NCBI GenBank assembly: GCA_003331605.1
Contig: QOPD01000002.1
Coordinates: 182,188-214,924, forward strand
Direction: 5' to 3'
DNA: 32,737 nucleotides
Source of the DNA: SAR86 cluster bacterium
GTDB lineage: Bacteria; Pseudomonadota; Gammaproteobacteria; Magnimaribacterales; TMED112
In this document: positions 10,563 through 18,530 of the stretch, one piece after another
How positions within the stretch are numbered: the first letter of the stretch is position 1
Layout of the letters: each line of letters starts with the position of its first letter
Program-made: the position numbers and the translations under genes
The notes under the pieces: generated by a model
Database searches by the model: none
What the model was told of the DNA's origin: nothing
What the model saw: the letters and a program-made list of their open reading frames with translations, nothing else

Positions 10563-11810
10563 CTAAAACTCTGGGTACGCCTCAACACCTATTTCTTCAG
10601 CATCCAACCCTTTCTTTTGAATTTCGTCAGAGGCTCTAACTGGAGCTACCAGATTTAGCAAAAATAGGAATGCATAGGTCAATACAAAGCCCCAAAGCAC
10701 AATTGAAACAACGCCATATAGCTGAGAACCAAATGTAGCTTCCGCATTAGTAAATGGCACAACCATGACACCAAATATTCCAGCTGCTCCGTGGGCGGAA
10801 ATAGCACCTACAGGATCATCAACCTTAAAGAATTGTTCAAATACAACCAATGCACCATAACAAATTAGACCGCCAACTGCTCCAATTAAAGTAGCTTCAT
10901 AACCACTTGGAGATAATGGGTCTGCTGTTATTGAAACTAGTCCTGATATGGCACCATTTAATGCATAAATGATATTGGTTTTTTTGAAGAACACTCTAGC
11001 AACTACTAAACATGAAATAACGCCCCCTGCAGCAGCCATATTAGTATTTAGGAATACTTGAGCTACAGCATTAGCGTTTTCAACGTCTTGTATTGCAAGC
11101 TGTGATCCACCATTAAAACCAAACCAACCCAACCAGAGAACAAAAGTTCCCAATGCAGCAATTGGAATATTTGCACCATAAAGTTTCTTCGTTTCAGCTA
11201 CAGGGAAGAGTCCATAACGTTTACCTGACACCTTGCCATACTTACCAAGTCTTGGACCAATAAATATTGCTGCAGCTAAGGCACATGCAGCTCCAATTAA
11301 ATGGACTGTTCCTGAACCAGCAAAATCTGAATAGCCATCTTGTTTCAAGAATCCGCCACCCCAATTCCAGAATCCTTGTACAGGATAAATGAAAGCTGCT
11401 ATAAAGACGACCAAAGCAAAAAATGGCCATTGGTTCATTCTCTCAGCAACAGCACCGGAAACAATTGAGCAAGCTGTGGCAACAAAAACTACCTGAAAGA
11501 AAAAATCAGCAGATTCTGAATAACCATAACCATCAACAACCGTATCAGCAGTAGTGCTTCCAAAACTAAAGTCATAAGCTGGCACTATTGTACCAGCAGG
11601 AACATCACCTGGGTACATCACCATGTAGCCACACAACAAATACATGAAGCATGCAATTGAATAAAGGCCGATATTTTTCGTAACTATCTCAGCCGTATTT
11701 TTTCTTCTGACAAGACCTGCCTCAAGCATAGTAAAGCCCGCTGCCATCCACATGACTAAAGCAGCAGTTATCAGCATATATAACGTATTTAAAGCGTATC
11801 CTATTTCCAT
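10563..11810 (-). CDS. amtB: Ammonium transporter (Amt family)
   Basis: Trimeric inner-membrane channel that takes up ammonium. The 415-residue protein has about 11 hydrophobic helices. The twin pore histidines are present: H170 in 'GSGTVHLIGA' and H340 in 'GAISAHGAAGIFG'. Other Amt marks are 'MEAGLVRRKN'-like 'LEAGLVRRKNTAEI' (30-42), 'GFWNWGGGFL' and 'WFGFNGGS'. There is no leader peptide. It lies 9 bp after the torF gene, so the two share a transcript that begins with a glutamine riboswitch. No glnK (PII) gene is adjacent, unlike many bacteria. Expression is expected to fall when glutamine is plentiful. Confidence 0.96.
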   Translation of the reverse strand: MEIGYALNTLYMLITAALVMWMAAGFTMLEAGLVRRKNTAEIVTKNIGLYSIACFMYLLCGYMVMYPGDVPAGTIVPAYDFSFGSTTADTVVDGYGYSESADFFFQVVFVATACSIVSGAVAERMNQWPFFALVVFIAAFIYPVQGFWNWGGGFLKQDGYSDFAGSGTVHLIGAACALAAAIFIGPRLGKYGKVSGKRYGLFPVAETKKLYGANIPIAALGTFVLWLGWFGFNGGSQLAIQDVENANAVAQVFLNTNMAAAGGVISCLVVARVFFKKTNIIYALNGAISGLVSITADPLSPSGYEATLIGAVGGLICYGALVVFEQFFKVDDPVGAISAHGAAGIFGVMVVPFTNAEATFGSQLYGVVSIVLWGFVLTYAFLFLLNLVAPVRASDEIQKKGLDAEEIGVEAYPEF

Positions 11811-11819
11811 ATTAGCCCT

Positions 11820-12416
11820 TTAAAATGATGCTCCGACAGTAAAAAATAGCCCGTCTTCATCTTCTAGTCCTGATGCACTATCGGCAGTAAATGAGCTATA
11901 ACCCAAAGACGCGTCATAATCACCTAAAGAAAATCCGTAACCGACTAAAAAGTTAGATCCTGTGTCTTCGTAATCTCCATAAGAAAATGAGAAATCACCA
12001 AAACCATATGATATGTCGTAATAGTCTCCAAACTCATCGCCAAGGTAGTATGAGAAACCGACACCGGCATATGACAATGCAACGTAGATTTCTGAAAAGT
12101 CGGCATCTGTTACTTCAGGATAAGCATAATTGATGTAACCAACATCCCATCCAAGACCACCATCGGTTTCACCTGCGTAACCTAGATAGGTATCAAGCTC
12201 AAGACCTGCACCACCAAAAGCAACATTAGAACCCCAAGTACCAGCATAAAAGCCACCTTCAGAGCTATAATCAAATCCACCACTGTACGCGGGAGCATCC
12301 ATAGTTTGGGACATCCCTCGCCAGAAGTAATTTGATGAAAATGAAAAGTTCGAGGACACACCTGCAAACACATTCAACGTTAGAAATATGGCTAAAGCCA
12401 TCATTCCTTTTTTCAT
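11820..12416 (-). CDS. TorF family putative outer-membrane porin (Gcw_chp/TIGR02001)
   Basis: A 198-residue predicted outer-membrane beta-barrel. A signal peptide ('MKKGMMALAIFLTLNVFA') is followed by the family hallmark 'SSNYFWRGMSQT', alternating Gly/Tyr/Ser strands such as 'FSFSYGDYED', and a terminal phenylalanine (the BAM insertion signal). Family members are often next to ammonium transporter genes; the natural substrate is unknown. A strong RBS (AAGGAG) stands before the ATG. It is the first gene after the glutamine riboswitch and terminator, and may let ammonium or small N compounds reach AmtB. Confidence 0.9.
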   Translation of the reverse strand: MKKGMMALAIFLTLNVFAGVSSNFSFSSNYFWRGMSQTMDAPAYSGGFDYSSEGGFYAGTWGSNVAFGGAGLELDTYLGYAGETDGGLGWDVGYINYAYPEVTDADFSEIYVALSYAGVGFSYYLGDEFGDYYDISYGFGDFSFSYGDYEDTGSNFLVGYGFSLGDYDASLGYSSFTADSASGLEDEDGLFFTVGASF

Positions 12417-12456
12417 AAAAACATCTCCTTATTAAAAATAAGTGTGTTAAGAATCG

Positions 12457-12488
12457 AAAAAGGGCTAAACCTTCATAGTTTAGTAGCC
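12457..12488 (-). terminator. Riboswitch expression platform: intrinsic terminator
   Basis: On the minus strand, directly after the aptamer, GGCTACTAAAC (12488-12478) pairs with GTTTAGCC (12470-12463) through an 8-bp stem with a 2-nt bulge, followed by C and five T (12461-12457). The hairpin ends 40 bp before the torF start. It is the likely switch by which the glutamine aptamer controls read-through into torF-amtB. Confidence 0.8.
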
Positions 12489-12541
12489 GCGTTCCTTCAG
12501 CTTTCGCTTACTTCCGTCCTCATAAGAGGATGAACGATTAG
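12487..12541 (-). promoter_or_regulatory. Glutamine riboswitch (glnA RNA motif)
   Basis: Read on the minus strand, this matches the glnA RNA aptamer closely: ATCGTTCATCC (5' side of P1), a small CCTC-TTAT-GAGG hairpin, the invariant core GACGGAAGTA, an AGC-GAAA-GCT hairpin, then GAAGGAACGCG, whose GAACG closes P1 with CGTTC. The glnA motif is established as an L-glutamine sensor in cyanobacteria and marine metagenomic DNA. It lies about 70 bp before torF, and a terminator follows it at once. Glutamine most likely turns torF-amtB off, though the direction of control cannot be proved from sequence. Confidence 0.93.
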
Positions 12542-12558
12542 ACGCTGCTCCTTTTTTG

Positions 12559-12623
12559 CCATGGAGTATGGTTTAACTTTTAACCCATGTTATATGGGCT
12601 CCTTTTAACCCATGGAGTATGGG
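12559..12623. repeat. Array of three CC(C)AT-N5-ATGG(G) palindromes, 25-26 bp apart
   Basis: Three short palindromes stand in a row: CCAT-GGAGT-ATGG (12559-12571), CCCAT-GTTAT-ATGGG (12584-12598) and CCCAT-GGAGT-ATGGG (12609-12623). Their centres are 26 and 25 bp apart, and GCTCCTTTT stands before the first and third. As DNA they could be operator sites between the divergent torF and gltB promoters; as minus-strand RNA they would form three hairpins upstream of the riboswitch. No regulator is identified. Confidence 0.7.
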
Positions 12624-12660
12624 GATAAAAAATATCTTCTTTATAAACACTATTTATAAA

Positions 12661-12690
12661 TTAACATAAGATAAATTAATGCTGTAGAAT
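12661..12690 (+). promoter_or_regulatory. Candidate sigma-70 promoter for gltBD
   Basis: TTAACA (12661-12666), an 18-bp spacer, and TAGAAT (12685-12690) match the sigma-70 boxes at 5 of 6 bases each. The start of transcription would be near 12697, leaving a leader of about 39 nt before gltB, which lacks a clear Shine-Dalgarno. Confidence 0.55.
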
Positions 12691-12701
12691 GTAAATGTCA
12701 A
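12673..12701 (-). promoter_or_regulatory. Candidate sigma-70 promoter for the riboswitch-torF-amtB transcript
   Basis: On the minus strand a perfect TTGACA (12701-12696) is followed after 17 bp by TAATTT (12678-12673), a poor -10. Transcription would start near 12666 and give a leader of about 250 nt containing the three hairpins, the aptamer and the terminator. It overlaps the gltB promoter face to face. Confidence 0.4.
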
Positions 12702-12735
12702 TAAAAAATTTACATAAAGTCGAAAAAGCAACAAA

Positions 12736-15700
12736 ATGAATGAGCATTTAGATCACAAAGACAATTGCGGCACTGGATCTATCTTTAATATCTCAAATCA
12801 ACCTGACCACAAAATAATAACAAGAGCTCTAAAATCTCTAATCAGCATGAAGCATCGTGGAGCCGTTTCTCATGATGGTTTAACGCCAGATGGCTGTGGG
12901 CTCCTTTTAGATCTAGACAAGAATTTTTTTCAAAAGGTGATGTTGGATGAACAAAATAAAATTTTACCTACTAATTTTGCAATTGGAGTTTTTTTCGTCA
13001 ATAAAAATTACGACTTTGAGCCAGAAATGCTAAAAATATGTGCTCAGCATTCGCTTGAAATACTGGGCACAAGAATACTTAAAACAAACTCAAAAATTCT
13101 TGGCAAAGAAGCAGCCAATTCTATGCCAGATATTTTGCAGCTATTTGTTAAAAGCAAAAATCCAAAAGTTGAGTTTGAAGTAGCTCTTTTTAAAGCAAAG
13201 AAATATTGTGATACACACCTCGATGCAGAAAAAAATAGTTATTGTGTTAGTTTCTCAAGCGAAACAATAGTCTACAAAGGTCTAGTGCAGCCTGAAGTTT
13301 TTGCCAATTTTTACTCTGACTTGACAGACAGCAGTTTTAAAACTGCATCGGCAGTTTTTCACGTTAGATTTTCCACAAATACTTCGCCTAAATGGCATCT
13401 AGCGCAACCTTATAGAGTGCTAGCTCACAATGGTGAAATTAATACCATTAGTGGTAACAGAAATTGGGCTCTAGCAAGGACTAAAGCATTTAATTCTACA
13501 AGATTAGGAGATATGAAAGACTATCAACCCCTCATTGGTCAAAGTGGCTCTGACTCATCTTCTTTGGACCATATTCTTGATTTATTTCGCGTTGGAGAAA
13601 TTAAAATTGCCCGTGCAGCTAGAATGTTGATTCCTCCATCTTGGCAAAATACAGATTTAATGGATCCAGATGAAAAAGCTTTTCATGAGTTTAATTCCAT
13701 GCATATGGAAGCTTGGGATGGTCCAGCATTGATTTGTTTTCAATCTAAAGATTACACCTGTTGTTTTCTAGATAGAAATGGGTTGAGACCAGCAAGAATA
13801 GAGCACTTTTCCGATGGTAGTGTGAGTATTGCCTCTGAAGTGGGCACTAACCTAAAGTCAAACATTAAGGTTAGAAAAACCGATAGGTTAGGCCCTGGTG
13901 GGTTAATTTTATTTGATCGAGCTCAGAGAAAAGTTCTTACAAACGATGAAGTAGATAAAGAACTTTCAGAAGCTATGCCCTACAGATTGTGGCTTAAAGA
14001 CCACTCTAGACATTTAGAAGCAAATTTACATGAATATTCTGGGCCGCAAATGAAGGAAATTTCCGATGCATATTTCGCTGAAGCATCAAAAAACTTTCAA
14101 CTAACAAGAGAGGAATCATTGAATATCTTTCATACTGCTGAAGAGAGTAATGAGCCTACAGGGTCTATGGGAGATGATACGCCTTTGGCTCCTATCAGCA
14201 GCAAGGTAAGATCAATCTATGATTATTGTCGTCAAAAATTTGCTCAGGTAACCAATCCTCCTATCGACTCTTTACGCGAAAAATCAGCGATGTCTCTTGA
14301 GACATGCATTGGTCCTGAGCGCAATATCTTTGAAGAGACCAAAGAACATGCTTCTAGAATAGTAGTAAATTCGCCAATTCTTTCCCATAAGAAATACAAT
14401 CTTTTACTCAAAAGCAAAAAGTTTAAGCTAAAGAAATACGCTCTAGAGTATTCGCGAAGTTTGGGGCTAGAAGAAGCTATGAGCCTTCTTTTGCAGGAAA
14501 TGCTATATGACGTTAAAAATGGTACTGGAATAGTTGTTTTGGATGAAAGACAAATATCGAGTAATAATCCTGTCATCCCTGCGCTTTTAATTACATCAGC
14601 CCTACATAGTGCTCTTATAAAGCAAAATTTAAGAGTTGCATGCAATATTGTTGTGAACTCAGCTTCTGCGCGTGATAATCATCAAATTTCTTGCCTAATA
14701 GCATTCGGGGCAACATGCGTTCATCCATGGCTAGGCCTGCAAGCTGTGCTAAAAAATGCAAAAAAAACTCAAACCGATCTAAGCAAAACAGAGCTATGTG
14801 TATCTTACAGACGTGCATTGAATAAAGGATTACTTAAAATTATGTCAAAAATGGGCATATCCAACGTATCCAGCTACCGAGGTTCAAGACTGTATGATGT
14901 GGTTGGTTTTTCAAAAAAAATGAGAAAAATGTGTTTTTCAGAAATGCATTCAAGTATTGATGGTGATTGCTTTAATGATATTCACGAGAAGATACTTGCT
15001 GTTTTAGACTCCAACCTTGATACAAGTCCTGTAGCCACCGGATTACACAAATACACATCCAATGGTGAGCAGCACGCATTTAACCCAGACGTGGTGTTGC
15101 AGTTGCAAAATGCACTGTCGTCTGGATCCTTTAGTGAGTTCAAAAATTTCTCTAGTTTGGTAGAAAATAGATCGCCGCTAGCTGTGAGAGATTTTTTTAA
15201 TGTTAAGTCAAAAAAAGACCCAATTGCTATTTCTGAGGTAGAGCCGATTGAATCAATTCTTCAAAGGTTTGATTCTGCAGGAATGAGTTTGGGTTCTTTG
15301 TCGCCTAAGGCTCATGAAACACTGGCAGCAGCAATGAATAGTCTTGGTTGTAGATCCAATTCAGGAGAGGGTGGAGAAGATCCAGCAAGATACAACACAC
15401 ATTTATCCTCTAAGATAAAACAAATAGCATCAGGCAGGTTTGGAGTTACCCCAAGTTATCTTGTAAATGCAGAAGTTTTGCAAATAAAAATTGCCCAAGG
15501 TGCAAAACCAGGAGAAGGTGGTCAGTTGCCTGGCACAAAAGTTGACCCTTACATTGCTCAACTTCGACACTCAAAACCAGGAGTAACACTTATATCACCA
15601 CCACCTCACCACGATATTTATTCCATTGAGGACCTGGCCCAACTTATACATGATTTAAAACAGATTAACGATCAGGCAATGGTGTCTGTAAAGCTAGTAT

Positions 15701-17136
15701 CAGAGCCTGGTGTTGGGATTATTGCTGCAGGAGTCGTAAAGGCCAATGCAGATTTTATAACTATTTCTGGTCACGACGGTGGCACAGGAGCAAGTCCAAT
15801 ATCATCAATAAGGCACGCTGGATCCCCATGGGAAATTGGTATGCATGAGGTACAAAACATATTATTGGAAAGCAATTTAAGATCCATGGTAAAGCTGCAA
15901 ACAGATGGGGGCTTGAAAGTGGGTTTAGATGTTATCAAAGCGGCAATCTTTGGAGCTGATTCCTTTGGTTTTGGCACAGCACCTATGATTGCTATGGGGT
16001 GTAAATACCTTAGAATTTGCCATCTCAATAACTGTGCGACTGGAGTGGCTACTCAACACATCAAAATCATTGATAAACAATTTGATGGAGAAGTTGAGAA
16101 GGTGCGGAATTATTTTTTATTAGTCGCGCAAGAAGTGCGTGAATATCTAGCTCAGCTTGGCTATAAGTCTCTTAACGAGATTATTGGAAAGACAAATTTA
16201 TTGCATTTGAAACCAGATACAAAGTCAAAGGCAGAAAAACTTGGACTTGCCACATTAAAAGAGAGATTCAGGCCCAATAAAAAACAGCACTGTACAGAAC
16301 CAAACAAATTGAACCTATCTCTTAACGACCATTCCTTATCAGAATTAATACAACAAAAAACCACTCAAAACATCAAAAAAGGGAAGGGTGGGTCTTATAC
16401 ATTCAAGATTGGCAATACTCATAGATCTATTGGTGGCAGATTATCTGGTGATATTGCCAGAAAATACGGAGATGACGGCTTCCCAGAAACGCTAATATTA
16501 AATTTTTCAGGCATAGCAGGGCAATCGTTTGGGTGCTGGAACCCCAAAGGCATTGAGATGAAGCTCAAGGGTTTTGCAAATGATTACGTAGGTAAGGGCA
16601 TGAATGGAGGAAAAATAACTCTTATACGACCCAGGGGCATGCAAGAGGACCGCTCTGTAGTTATGGGCAACACTTGCTTATTTGGTGCGACTGGAGGTGA
16701 GCTTTATGGCAACGGAATTGCTGGTGAACGGTTTGCTGTAAGAAATTCTGGGTGCAAAGCTGTAGTTGAGGGTGCAGGAGATCATTGCTGTGAATATATG
16801 ACTGGTGGAGAAGTTATTGTGTTGGGCAATGTAGGACATAATTTTGGAGCTGGGATGACAGGTGGTTTTGCATATATTCTCGATGAAGACAGAAGTTTTG
16901 TAGATAAATGCAACAAAGAATCTGTAACTTTTAATCGCATCACTAACCAAGAGATGGAAGCCCATAAATCTTACCTTAAAGATAGAATTTATTGTCATCT
17001 TAAAGAGACTGGCAGTGAAGTTGCACAAAAAATTATGGCTGACTTTGATAAATATCAAAGCAAATTTTGGATTGTTACTCCAAATGCAGAAAATTTAGCC
17101 AGAATAATTAAAAATACTAGAGAGGAAGCAGCTTAA
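12736..17136 (+). CDS. gltB: Glutamate synthase (NADPH) large subunit
   Basis: With GltD it turns glutamine + 2-oxoglutarate into two glutamates (GOGAT), the second step of ammonium assimilation. The N-terminal class-II glutaminase domain begins at C11 in 'DNCGTG', which becomes the nucleophile after removal of a short propeptide. The central and FMN domains follow, with 'SNSGEGGEDPARY' and 'KPGEGGQLPGTKV', then the 3Fe-4S cysteines C1089, C1095 and C1100 in 'CKYLRICHLNNCATG', and the C-terminal glycine-rich beta-helix ('YVGKGMNGGKI', 'GMTGGFAYILDED'). 1466 residues is full length. The stop overlaps the gltD ATG (TAATG). Confidence 0.97.
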   Translation: MNEHLDHKDNCGTGSIFNISNQPDHKIITRALKSLISMKHRGAVSHDGLTPDGCGLLLDLDKNFFQKVMLDEQNKILPTNFAIGVFFVNKNYDFEPEMLKICAQHSLEILGTRILKTNSKILGKEAANSMPDILQLFVKSKNPKVEFEVALFKAKKYCDTHLDAEKNSYCVSFSSETIVYKGLVQPEVFANFYSDLTDSSFKTASAVFHVRFSTNTSPKWHLAQPYRVLAHNGEINTISGNRNWALARTKAFNSTRLGDMKDYQPLIGQSGSDSSSLDHILDLFRVGEIKIARAARMLIPPSWQNTDLMDPDEKAFHEFNSMHMEAWDGPALICFQSKDYTCCFLDRNGLRPARIEHFSDGSVSIASEVGTNLKSNIKVRKTDRLGPGGLILFDRAQRKVLTNDEVDKELSEAMPYRLWLKDHSRHLEANLHEYSGPQMKEISDAYFAEASKNFQLTREESLNIFHTAEESNEPTGSMGDDTPLAPISSKVRSIYDYCRQKFAQVTNPPIDSLREKSAMSLETCIGPERNIFEETKEHASRIVVNSPILSHKKYNLLLKSKKFKLKKYALEYSRSLGLEEAMSLLLQEMLYDVKNGTGIVVLDERQISSNNPVIPALLITSALHSALIKQNLRVACNIVVNSASARDNHQISCLIAFGATCVHPWLGLQAVLKNAKKTQTDLSKTELCVSYRRALNKGLLKIMSKMGISNVSSYRGSRLYDVVGFSKKMRKMCFSEMHSSIDGDCFNDIHEKILAVLDSNLDTSPVATGLHKYTSNGEQHAFNPDVVLQLQNALSSGSFSEFKNFSSLVENRSPLAVRDFFNVKSKKDPIAISEVEPIESILQRFDSAGMSLGSLSPKAHETLAAAMNSLGCRSNSGEGGEDPARYNTHLSSKIKQIASGRFGVTPSYLVNAEVLQIKIAQGAKPGEGGQLPGTKVDPYIAQLRHSKPGVTLISPPPHHDIYSIEDLAQLIHDLKQINDQAMVSVKLVSEPGVGIIAAGVVKANADFITISGHDGGTGASPISSIRHAGSPWEIGMHEVQNILLESNLRSMVKLQTDGGLKVGLDVIKAAIFGADSFGFGTAPMIAMGCKYLRICHLNNCATGVATQHIKIIDKQFDGEVEKVRNYFLLVAQEVREYLAQLGYKSLNEIIGKTNLLHLKPDTKSKAEKLGLATLKERFRPNKKQHCTEPNKLNLSLNDHSLSELIQQKTTQNIKKGKGGSYTFKIGNTHRSIGGRLSGDIARKYGDDGFPETLILNFSGIAGQSFGCWNPKGIEMKLKGFANDYVGKGMNGGKITLIRPRGMQEDRSVVMGNTCLFGATGGELYGNGIAGERFAVRNSGCKAVVEGAGDHCCEYMTGGEVIVLGNVGHNFGAGMTGGFAYILDEDRSFVDKCNKESVTFNRITNQEMEAHKSYLKDRIYCHLKETGSEVAQKIMADFDKYQSKFWIVTPNAENLARIIKNTREEAA

Positions 17137-18530
17137 TGTCCGAGAAAAATTTTGAATTTTTGAATTTAGAGAGACAAGAGCCAAAGCTTAAAGCTGTTGA
17201 GGTTAGAAAAGTAGATTTTAGAGAAATTTATGAAGACCAAACAATGGAAAATGCAGTTTCACAATCCAGCAGATGTCTTGATTGTGGTAATCCTTACTGC
17301 CAGTGGAAGTGTCCACTACACAATAAAATACCGGAGTGGTTAAAACTGCTTGAACAATCATCAATAGAGGAAGCAGCAGACTTATGTCACGAAACGAATG
17401 CCTTTCCAGAAATATGCGGACGCATATGTCCACAAGACAAACTATGTGAAGGCGCATGCACCCTTAACACCGGCTTTGAAGCGGTGACTATTGGACAACT
17501 AGAGAAGTACATCACCGATACCGCTCTTAGCAAAGGCTGGAAACCAAAAAAGTACATGTCAAAAAATACCAAACACCATATTTCAATAATTGGTGCTGGG
17601 CCAGCTGGATTAGCGTGTGCAGAAAGCCTTATTCGTCGAGGAATATCTTGCACTGTTTATGACAAGCACAAACAGATAGGAGGACTATTAACTTATGGAA
17701 TTCCAGAATTTAAATTGGAAAAAAAGATTGTTCTCAAGCGAAGGCAATTGCTTGAAGAGTTGGGTGTAAAGTTCGTTTTAAATACCGAAGTTGATACAAA
17801 GAAACTTGCTCAGATTGAGAACAACAGTGATGCTGTGTTTTTAGGTTTGGGCACCTATGAGTCCATCAAGGGTGATATCGAAGGCATTAATAAAAATGGC
17901 GTTGTTGAAGCACTACCTTACTTAATAAAAAATACCGAGTATTTGATGGACCCAGAAGATGCAGAAAAAATTGATTTTGCTAATCAAAGGGTAGCTGTGT
18001 TGGGTGGTGGAGATACAGCTATGGACTGTGTGCGGACAGCACTGCGTCAACAAGCAAAGAGCGTTACCTGCATCTATCGTAGAGACCAAGAAAATATGCC
18101 GGGATCTACTAAAGAAATTAAAAATGCGATGGAGGAGGGCGTTAAATTTCTCTTCAACACACAGCCTCTTGAAGTAGGTGGCAATGGTTCGGTCACCAGC
18201 CTGAGGGTATGCGAAACTAAGCTAGGAGAGCCTGACGACAGTGGGAGGCAGCGCCCTGAAGTCATTCCAGGATCTAATCAAGACATAGAGGTAGATAAGC
18301 TCGTGATTGCTTTTGGTTACCAAGCAGATCTACCGGATTTTATTCTTGAGAAGAATGTAAGCACAACAAGCACAGGTTTAATTGAGCTAAAGGGCGATGA
18401 ATTTAGATATCAAACCTCAAATCCTAAGTACTTTGCAGGCGGAGATATGGTTATAGGATCGAGTCTAGCAGTGCATGCAATAGCGCATGGCCGAGATGCA
18501 GCTAAAGAAATAATAAAATTCTTAAATTAA
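17136..18530 (+). CDS. gltD: Glutamate synthase (NADPH) small subunit
   Basis: Passes electrons from NADPH through FAD and iron-sulfur centres to GltB. The N-terminal 4Fe-4S cysteines C47, C50, C55 and C59 are in 'RCLDCGNPYCQWKCP', with a second cysteine set in 'EICGRICPQDKLCEGACTL'. FAD binding is shown by 'IGAGPAGLACAESL' (about residue 150) and NADPH binding by 'VLGGGDTAMDCVRTA' (about 288). A C-terminal 'YFAGGDMVIGSSLAVHAIAHGRDAA' completes the FAD fold. 464 residues is typical. It is translationally coupled to gltB and followed by a strong terminator. Confidence 0.97.
   Translation: MSEKNFEFLNLERQEPKLKAVEVRKVDFREIYEDQTMENAVSQSSRCLDCGNPYCQWKCPLHNKIPEWLKLLEQSSIEEAADLCHETNAFPEICGRICPQDKLCEGACTLNTGFEAVTIGQLEKYITDTALSKGWKPKKYMSKNTKHHISIIGAGPAGLACAESLIRRGISCTVYDKHKQIGGLLTYGIPEFKLEKKIVLKRRQLLEELGVKFVLNTEVDTKKLAQIENNSDAVFLGLGTYESIKGDIEGINKNGVVEALPYLIKNTEYLMDPEDAEKIDFANQRVAVLGGGDTAMDCVRTALRQQAKSVTCIYRRDQENMPGSTKEIKNAMEEGVKFLFNTQPLEVGGNGSVTSLRVCETKLGEPDDSGRQRPEVIPGSNQDIEVDKLVIAFGYQADLPDFILEKNVSTTSTGLIELKGDEFRYQTSNPKYFAGGDMVIGSSLAVHAIAHGRDAAKEIIKFLN

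Follow-up and report, generated by a model that had tools for sequence, protein, structure and literature searches.

The leader of a porin–ammonium transporter operon, torF-amtB, carries a glutamine riboswitch aptamer in a bacterium of SAR86, an abundant group in the ocean, belonging to a genus in which PII and NtrC were not found. It is probable, at roughly 0.75, that a riboswitch made up of pseudoknots, aptamer and expression platform, and turned off by glutamine, replaces the PII/NtrC circuit on torF-amtB and glnA. From its 5' end, the torF-amtB mRNA would present three small pseudoknots followed by one glutamine aptamer of type 1, a short expression platform and the torF gene. On binding glutamine, the riboswitch would most likely lower the expression of both the porin and the ammonium transporter, and tandem copies of the riboswitch would act likewise on glutamine synthetase; with the riboswitch on both mRNAs, the cell would thus read its nitrogen status directly as glutamine. 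The ancestral circuit presumed to have been replaced comprises torF-glnK-amtB with PII and GlnD, and glnA-ntrB-ntrC with sigma-54. It was lost in the genus of this bacterium (hereafter the focal genus) and, seemingly independently, in a second SAR86 genus.

The torF-amtB leader and its glutamine aptamer

The window, i.e., the whole stretch of DNA that was analysed (32,737 nt), contains the following features.

10563-11810 (-): amtB, ammonium transporter of the marine subtype, 415 aa (TIGR03644, 540 bits, above cut-off; PF00909)
11820-12416 (-): torF, TorF-family putative porin, 198 aa (TIGR02001, 98 bits; PF09694)
12425-12430 (-): torF Shine-Dalgarno sequence AAGGAG, read from the sequence and kept in the leader alignment
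12457-12488 (-): terminator-like hairpin of 8 pairs with a 3-nt bulge, then U5; weak, not conserved
12464-12471 (-): GGUUUAGC, part of a conserved post-aptamer block, with the potential to form an 8-bp helix with GUUAAACC (12570-12577)
12486-12538 (-): Glutamine-I (glnA) riboswitch aptamer, RF01739, with P1 formed by 12536-12532 and 12494-12490
12548-12571 (-): PK3, H-type pseudoknot CCAU-A-CUCC-AUGG-CAAAAAA-GGAG (pseudoknot scan, covariation)
12574-12597 (-): PK2, H-type pseudoknot CCAU-A-UAAC-AUGG-GUUAAAA-GUUA (pseudoknot scan, covariation)
12599-12622 (-): PK1, H-type pseudoknot CCAU-A-CUCC-AUGG-GUUAAAA-GGAG (pseudoknot scan, covariation)
12673-12701 (-): candidate sigma-70 promoter TTGACA-17-TAATTT, identified by eye and from the alignment; weak
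12736-17136 (+): gltB, glutamate synthase large subunit, divergent, without an aptamer of its own (NF008730, 1925 bits)
17136-18530 (+): gltD, glutamate synthase small subunit (TIGR01318, 626 bits)

The cmscan of the whole window returns a single match above the gathering cut-off, RF01739 at 12486-12538 (-), scoring 71.5 bits where the gathering score is 35, with an E-value of 3.2e-14 and full coverage of the model (1-53 of 53). This confirms the near-consensus glnA aptamer that the preliminary description had read in the minus-strand leader, and the TIGR02001 and TIGR03644 matches likewise bear out the porin–ammonium transporter pair that it had placed downstream. P1, P2 and P3 as well as the conserved cores GACGGAAGUA and GAAGGAACG are all present in the alignment to RF01739. 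Over the 14 orthologous leaders, the covariation sought in relatives is found in P2 and P3, as two-sided (compensatory) changes, but not in P1, which is invariant. The aptamer lies 70 nt before torF-amtB, and its leader position before a nitrogen gene is the same in relatives. The Glutamine-II riboswitch (RF01704) reaches 19.1 bits, below its cut-off of 33, in a match that partly overlaps the glnA aptamer. The aptamer is a new member of the known class RF01739, and L-glutamine is its presumed ligand.

The divergent gltBD genes do start on the opposite strand, at 12736 (+), as first described, but nothing was found that ties them to the riboswitch in this genome. The sigma-70 promoter candidate is rated weak because its exact site is missing from the list of the consensus scan. 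Between this candidate and PK1, the torF leaders share an AT-rich conserved element with the direct repeat TTTATAA..TTTATAA (window 12623-12680 (-)), which is also found in the L013, L021 and L047 leaders and may serve as an operator or as another promoter.

The host, at first called apparently gammaproteobacterial, is a SAR86 gammaproteobacterium, with a genome of 939 kb that is 97% complete and holds five aptamers in all. Besides the one in the window, two tandem pairs are present.

L035, 13655-13777: tandem aptamer pair before a class I glutamine synthetase (gene at 12164-13570)
L035, 5356-5461: tandem aptamer pair before a 43-aa ORF

The 43-aa ORF of this locus (L035:5200-5470 (-)) is basic; aptamers in other SAR86 precede different small ORFs of 54, 46 and 71 aa, the last of them DUF4177-like. 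Throughout the focal genus, the targets are torF-amtB (14 leaders) and GSII or GSI (about 18), with GSII and amtB forming a single operon behind aptamers in three genomes (G010, G014 and G017). The glutamine synthetase appears to have been swapped under a conserved riboswitch leader, being of class I in G000 and G008 and GSII in the rest of the genus (leaders L002 and L009 compared with L008, L011, L012 and others).

Across the order, 41 of the 61 genomes contain an aptamer match. The aptamer is rare in the class: of 369 genomes sampled across Gammaproteobacteria, only 3 gave a match, namely the host genome, one other SAR86 and the small G344, which belongs to another family. When named genomes were scanned by pattern, it also turned up in cyanobacteria and, before an ammonium transporter, in SAR11/SAR116-type alphaproteobacteria. 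The remark that the riboswitch is best known from cyanobacteria is fair, yet it leaves aside these alphaproteobacterial amt leaders and the marine amt/glnA aptamers reported in 2010.

Several further arrangements were observed. Aptamers before DUF4278-like small proteins (L056, L057, L058, L059 and L060, from G025, G023, G050, G030 and G027) have their GGAAGUA and GAAGGAACG cores separated by a conserved insertion, very roughly 60 nt long, and possibly represent an enlarged variant; their scores drop to 27-35 bits, and most are therefore missed by Rfam. In other streamlined gammaproteobacteria, aptamers precede gltB (L023, L028 and L029 from G038, G029 and G032; L218 and L220 (G344); L139; L147) and, in G344, also gltD. 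A putative protein of about 477 aa, resembling the circularly permuted ATP-grasp type, follows the aptamers of L022, L026 and L099, and in L099 an alpha-E-like ORF comes next. Five alphaproteobacterial amt leaders (L062, L079, L086, L101 and L124) have a second aptamer-like element about 20 nt after the first, with the core UCGG, not ACGG. Some of the aptamer contigs titled Betaproteobacteria, Kiritimatiellaceae, Porticoccaceae and others (L070, L088, L094, L128 and L136) look misassigned; L070, likely one of these, encodes a SAR86-type 54-aa ORF.

Loss of the PII/NtrC circuit in two SAR86 genera

Among the 21 genomes of the focal genus, which are mostly incomplete metagenome-assembled and single-cell genomes but include several that are more than 90% complete and two single contigs, PII was found in none, against 36 of the 40 other SAR86 genomes, and NtrC above the cut-off likewise in none, against 33 of 40. 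RpoN (sigma-54) and GlnD, both found in other SAR86, were also detected in none of the 21. The preliminary description had reported no glnK nearby; this holds, and no glnK occurs anywhere in the host genome. GlnE is missing from all 61 genomes of the order and, for that reason, is uninformative as a further lost regulator.

Orthologous amtB genes (57-62% identical) in 31 PII-bearing SAR86 are preceded in every case (31/31) by a PII gene, glnK, about 30-50 nt upstream on the same strand, and in the three cases checked (L211, L212 and L216) torF lies just before glnK. The order torF-glnK-amtB is therefore ancestral there, and the focal genus lacks glnK between torF and amtB. In 32 of the 33 NtrC-bearing genomes, ntrC is preceded on its own strand by GSII at a distance of about 1.1-1.3 kb, a spacing that is that of a glnA-ntrB-ntrC operon with the intervening ntrB presumed. 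Both neighbour counts were obtained by comparing listed coordinates. Together with the absence of PII, NtrC, GlnD and RpoN, the removal of glnK from the operon gives strong comparative support to the initial proposal that glutamine sensing stands in for PII/NtrC control. In three genomes (G029, G032 and G038), the NtrC homologues occupy a frame of about 260 aa in which matches to the model are confined to its receiver (1-154) and C-terminal (372-463) parts; the AAA+ domain looks missing, and no RpoN was detected there.

A second genus, g10 (G034 and G058), likewise lacks PII, NtrC, GlnD and RpoN. Two aptamers precede GSII in this genus (L007), and three tandem aptamers precede torF-amtB, without glnK, in L080 and L167, which were placed in g10 by their near-identical leaders. 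Tandem aptamers also lie before a protein resembling a TonB-dependent receptor (L039, L040, L076 and L150), and it is possible that outer-membrane uptake is under glutamine control in g10. An aptamer at glnA or amtB is thus found in both PII-less genera (2/2) against none of the 14 others (p = 0.008), whose aptamers precede DUF4278-like or other small proteins, gltB, or the 477-aa protein.

In a tree of AmtB, g10 branches with the PII-bearing SAR86 (99/96), apart from the focal genus (99/98); glnK was therefore apparently lost from this operon twice, and the tree speaks against torF-amtB having passed recently from one PII-less genus to the other. Independent losses behind the replacement number only two, and as the pseudoknot described below is common to both genera, the leader could have moved between lineages, so that the cases may be only partly independent. 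A GSII cassette as the transferred unit was set aside, since GSII occurs throughout the order and is therefore no marker of transfer; a SAR86 phage as carrier of the leader was also considered, and viral contigs gave no exact match.

Tandem pseudoknots and the expression platform

Three tandem 24-nt units at 12548-12622 (-), 10-85 nt before the aptamer, can each form an H-type pseudoknot. Its first stem is CCAU/AUGG, and the loop CUCC (UAAC in the middle copy) pairs with GGAG (GUUA) past an A-rich linker, both sides of the second stem of PK2 being changed relative to PK1 and PK3. Among 26 distinct copies, taken from the two PII-less genera, 97% of the pair cells are standard, and three of the four pairs of the second stem show two-sided changes (CUCC/GGAG, UUCC/GGAA, CCCC/GGGG, UAAC/GUUA, GUC/GAC). 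At 0.282, the covariation score exceeds that of every slid version (at most 0.071), and the two interleaved stems of an H-type pseudoknot are maintained by compensatory changes. Of the 43 sites returned by a pattern search of the 61 genomes, 4 are stray; the remaining 39 belong to the two PII-less genera, where an aptamer follows each within about 120 nt. A sequence-free scan, for which the leaders were grouped by hand, detects knots in 31 of the 38 leaders of these genera against 2 of 115 other aptamer leaders, and the arrangement PK-PK-PK-aptamer is kept in all 14 torF-amtB leaders seen in the focal genus. No Rfam family matches the pseudoknots. BMV3 UPD-PK1 (RF01108) shares the short H-type topology, but its match is weak and at chance level (13.4 bits, E 6.9), far under the gathering score, and it differs in organism, sequence and context.

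RNA is favoured over a DNA operator as the functional form of the repeats because three second-stem base pairs are compensated. AUG-GGU-UAA mini-ORFs in the repeats were rejected, as the frame is lost in relatives. The pseudoknots probably take part in switching. A serious alternative, to which we assign somewhat less than even odds, is that they merely stabilise the mRNA or bind a protein while the aptamer alone controls the genes. Such a role would agree with their compact H-type form, whose very short loops and A-rich third loop leave little room for a ligand, and their tandem repetition fits a structural or protein-binding element. Moreover, an intact copy is missing from the g10 torF leaders and from two glnA leaders, and the pseudoknot is therefore not indispensable. 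Their near confinement to the glutamine-aptamer leaders of PII-less SAR86 (4 of 43 sites stray) suggests instead a role in nitrogen control, not in general stability. It is rather improbable that the tandem pseudoknots constitute a second, undescribed sensor or logic element beside the glutamine aptamer, with the torF-amtB and glnA leaders integrating two inputs, the second being, for example, a protein or a further nitrogen or carbon signal. If true, this would amount to PII-like integration by RNA alone.

The expression platform is less well defined. An 8-bp hairpin with U5 right after the aptamer, which the preliminary description took for the controlling terminator, is present in the sequence (hairpin 12463-12488 (-), U5 12457-12461), but it is weak (-5.9 kcal/mol) and is not listed on the minus strand by the consensus terminator scan. 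Over the 14 leaders, 57% of its cells are paired with no two-sided change, and it is complete in two only (G000 and its near twin G008); the conserved stable hairpin with U run of an intrinsic terminator was not found in the orthologous leaders, and terminator control as first proposed is not supported by conservation. Transcription attenuation, in which glutamine-bound P1 would let this hairpin form with U5 and stop transcription before torF, is unlikely: hairpins in the other leaders are no more stable than about -1.4 to -3.6 kcal/mol, or are absent, and the U run is missing in several aligned leaders. The location of hairpin and U5 directly 3' of P1 is what such a mechanism would call for, and nearly all relatives could form a shorter AAGG-CCUU hairpin followed by a variable U run. 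An anti-terminator pairing the A-run of PK3 with the U-run was rejected (71% of cells, broken in many leaders).

The conserved post-aptamer block CUAUG..AAGGUUUGACCCUUU can form either the short AAGG/CCUU hairpin or the 8-bp pairing with GUUAAACC. The latter offers a translational switch, which we regard as tentative: a helix between GUUAAACC (PK2/PK3) and the post-aptamer GGUUUGAC/GGUUUAGC would rival the pseudoknots and alter access to the torF Shine-Dalgarno sequence, and in the glnA leaders a related arrangement would sequester the Shine-Dalgarno sequence of those leaders locally. The GGUUUAGC/GUUAAACC helix, which spans the PK2/PK3 junction and encloses the aptamer, is possible in 14 of 14 leaders, and the 5' half of PK3 is complementary to GGAGAUG at the torF Shine-Dalgarno sequence in most of them. 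Minimum-energy folds, from energy models without pseudoknots, pair the Shine-Dalgarno sequence in a helix after the aptamer in many glnA leaders, and translational control is therefore plausible. However, the changes in the long-range helix are one-sided only and mostly G-U-compatible, with no covariation signal and no advantage over shuffles, and no conserved anti-Shine-Dalgarno sequence for torF is proven. We lean, with low confidence, towards a translational or mixed platform for the torF-amtB leader. That the aptamer is a conserved relic and amtB now constitutive is highly improbable: streamlined marine bacteria do show little regulation overall (PMC13198564), but P1 is invariant and P2 and P3 are compensated over a divergent genus, and the leader architecture is near-invariant.

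Relation to known systems and significance

Weinberg et al. 2010 (PMC2864571) reported the aptamer class and, in marine sequences, its association with genes for glutamine synthetase and ammonium transporters. A 2018 review describes glutamine riboswitches as cyanobacteria-restricted and the links to glutamine synthetase, PII and ammonium transporter genes as apparently confined to environmental sequences (PMC6316151), and a 2022 paper presents a glutamine riboswitch in an OM43 phage (PMC9004378). Our literature search found no report of glutamine riboswitches in SAR86. The class and the marine amt/glnA link have thus been known since 2010, and the SAR86 host, the regulatory swap and the pseudoknots are new. 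The SAR86 leaders share with the Glutamine-I motif (RF01739) the aptamer sequence and structure, the single and tandem arrangements and the marine glutamine synthetase/amt links; they differ from its known cases in the host without PII/NtrC, the upstream pseudoknot array and a platform unlike that of cyanobacterial gifB. In SAR11/SAR116-type alphaproteobacteria, too, an ammonium transporter gene follows glutamine aptamers, of which there are often two, but it belongs to a different amt subfamily, the first aptamer lies about 160 nt from the gene, there is no torF and no pseudoknot array was found.

The cyanobacterial gifB/IF17 riboswitch contains the same aptamer class, and SAR86 relatives also have aptamers before DUF4278-like small proteins. 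The cyanobacterial riboswitch responds to glutamine by inducing an inhibitor of glutamine synthetase (PMC6316151), whereas the SAR86 targets encode uptake and assimilation proper; a response in the off direction is therefore expected. On these physiological grounds glutamine probably turns expression off, although gifB of Synechocystis, the best-studied member of the class, is turned on by glutamine (PMC6316151). Compared with glnK-amtB and the NtrBC control of glnA, the targets and the signal (glutamine or nitrogen status) are the same, but the focal SAR86 lack the protein sensors and the RNA would sense in cis.

The finding assigns riboswitches on amt and glutamine synthetase genes, so far environmental-only (PMC6316151), to named organisms and adds a covariation-supported RNA motif that matches no Rfam family. 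It also touches a broader issue, since nitrogen regulation in streamlined ocean bacteria without PII is an open question. Smith et al., in a study cited in PMC13198564, reportedly raised it in 2013 for SAR11, asking how PII-less streamlined ocean bacteria regulate nitrogen assimilation. SAR86 offers a natural before-and-after, with relatives that carry torF-glnK-amtB and glnA-ntrBC on one side and two genera with a riboswitch on the same genes on the other, so that one can test directly whether RNA took over from a central protein signalling circuit.
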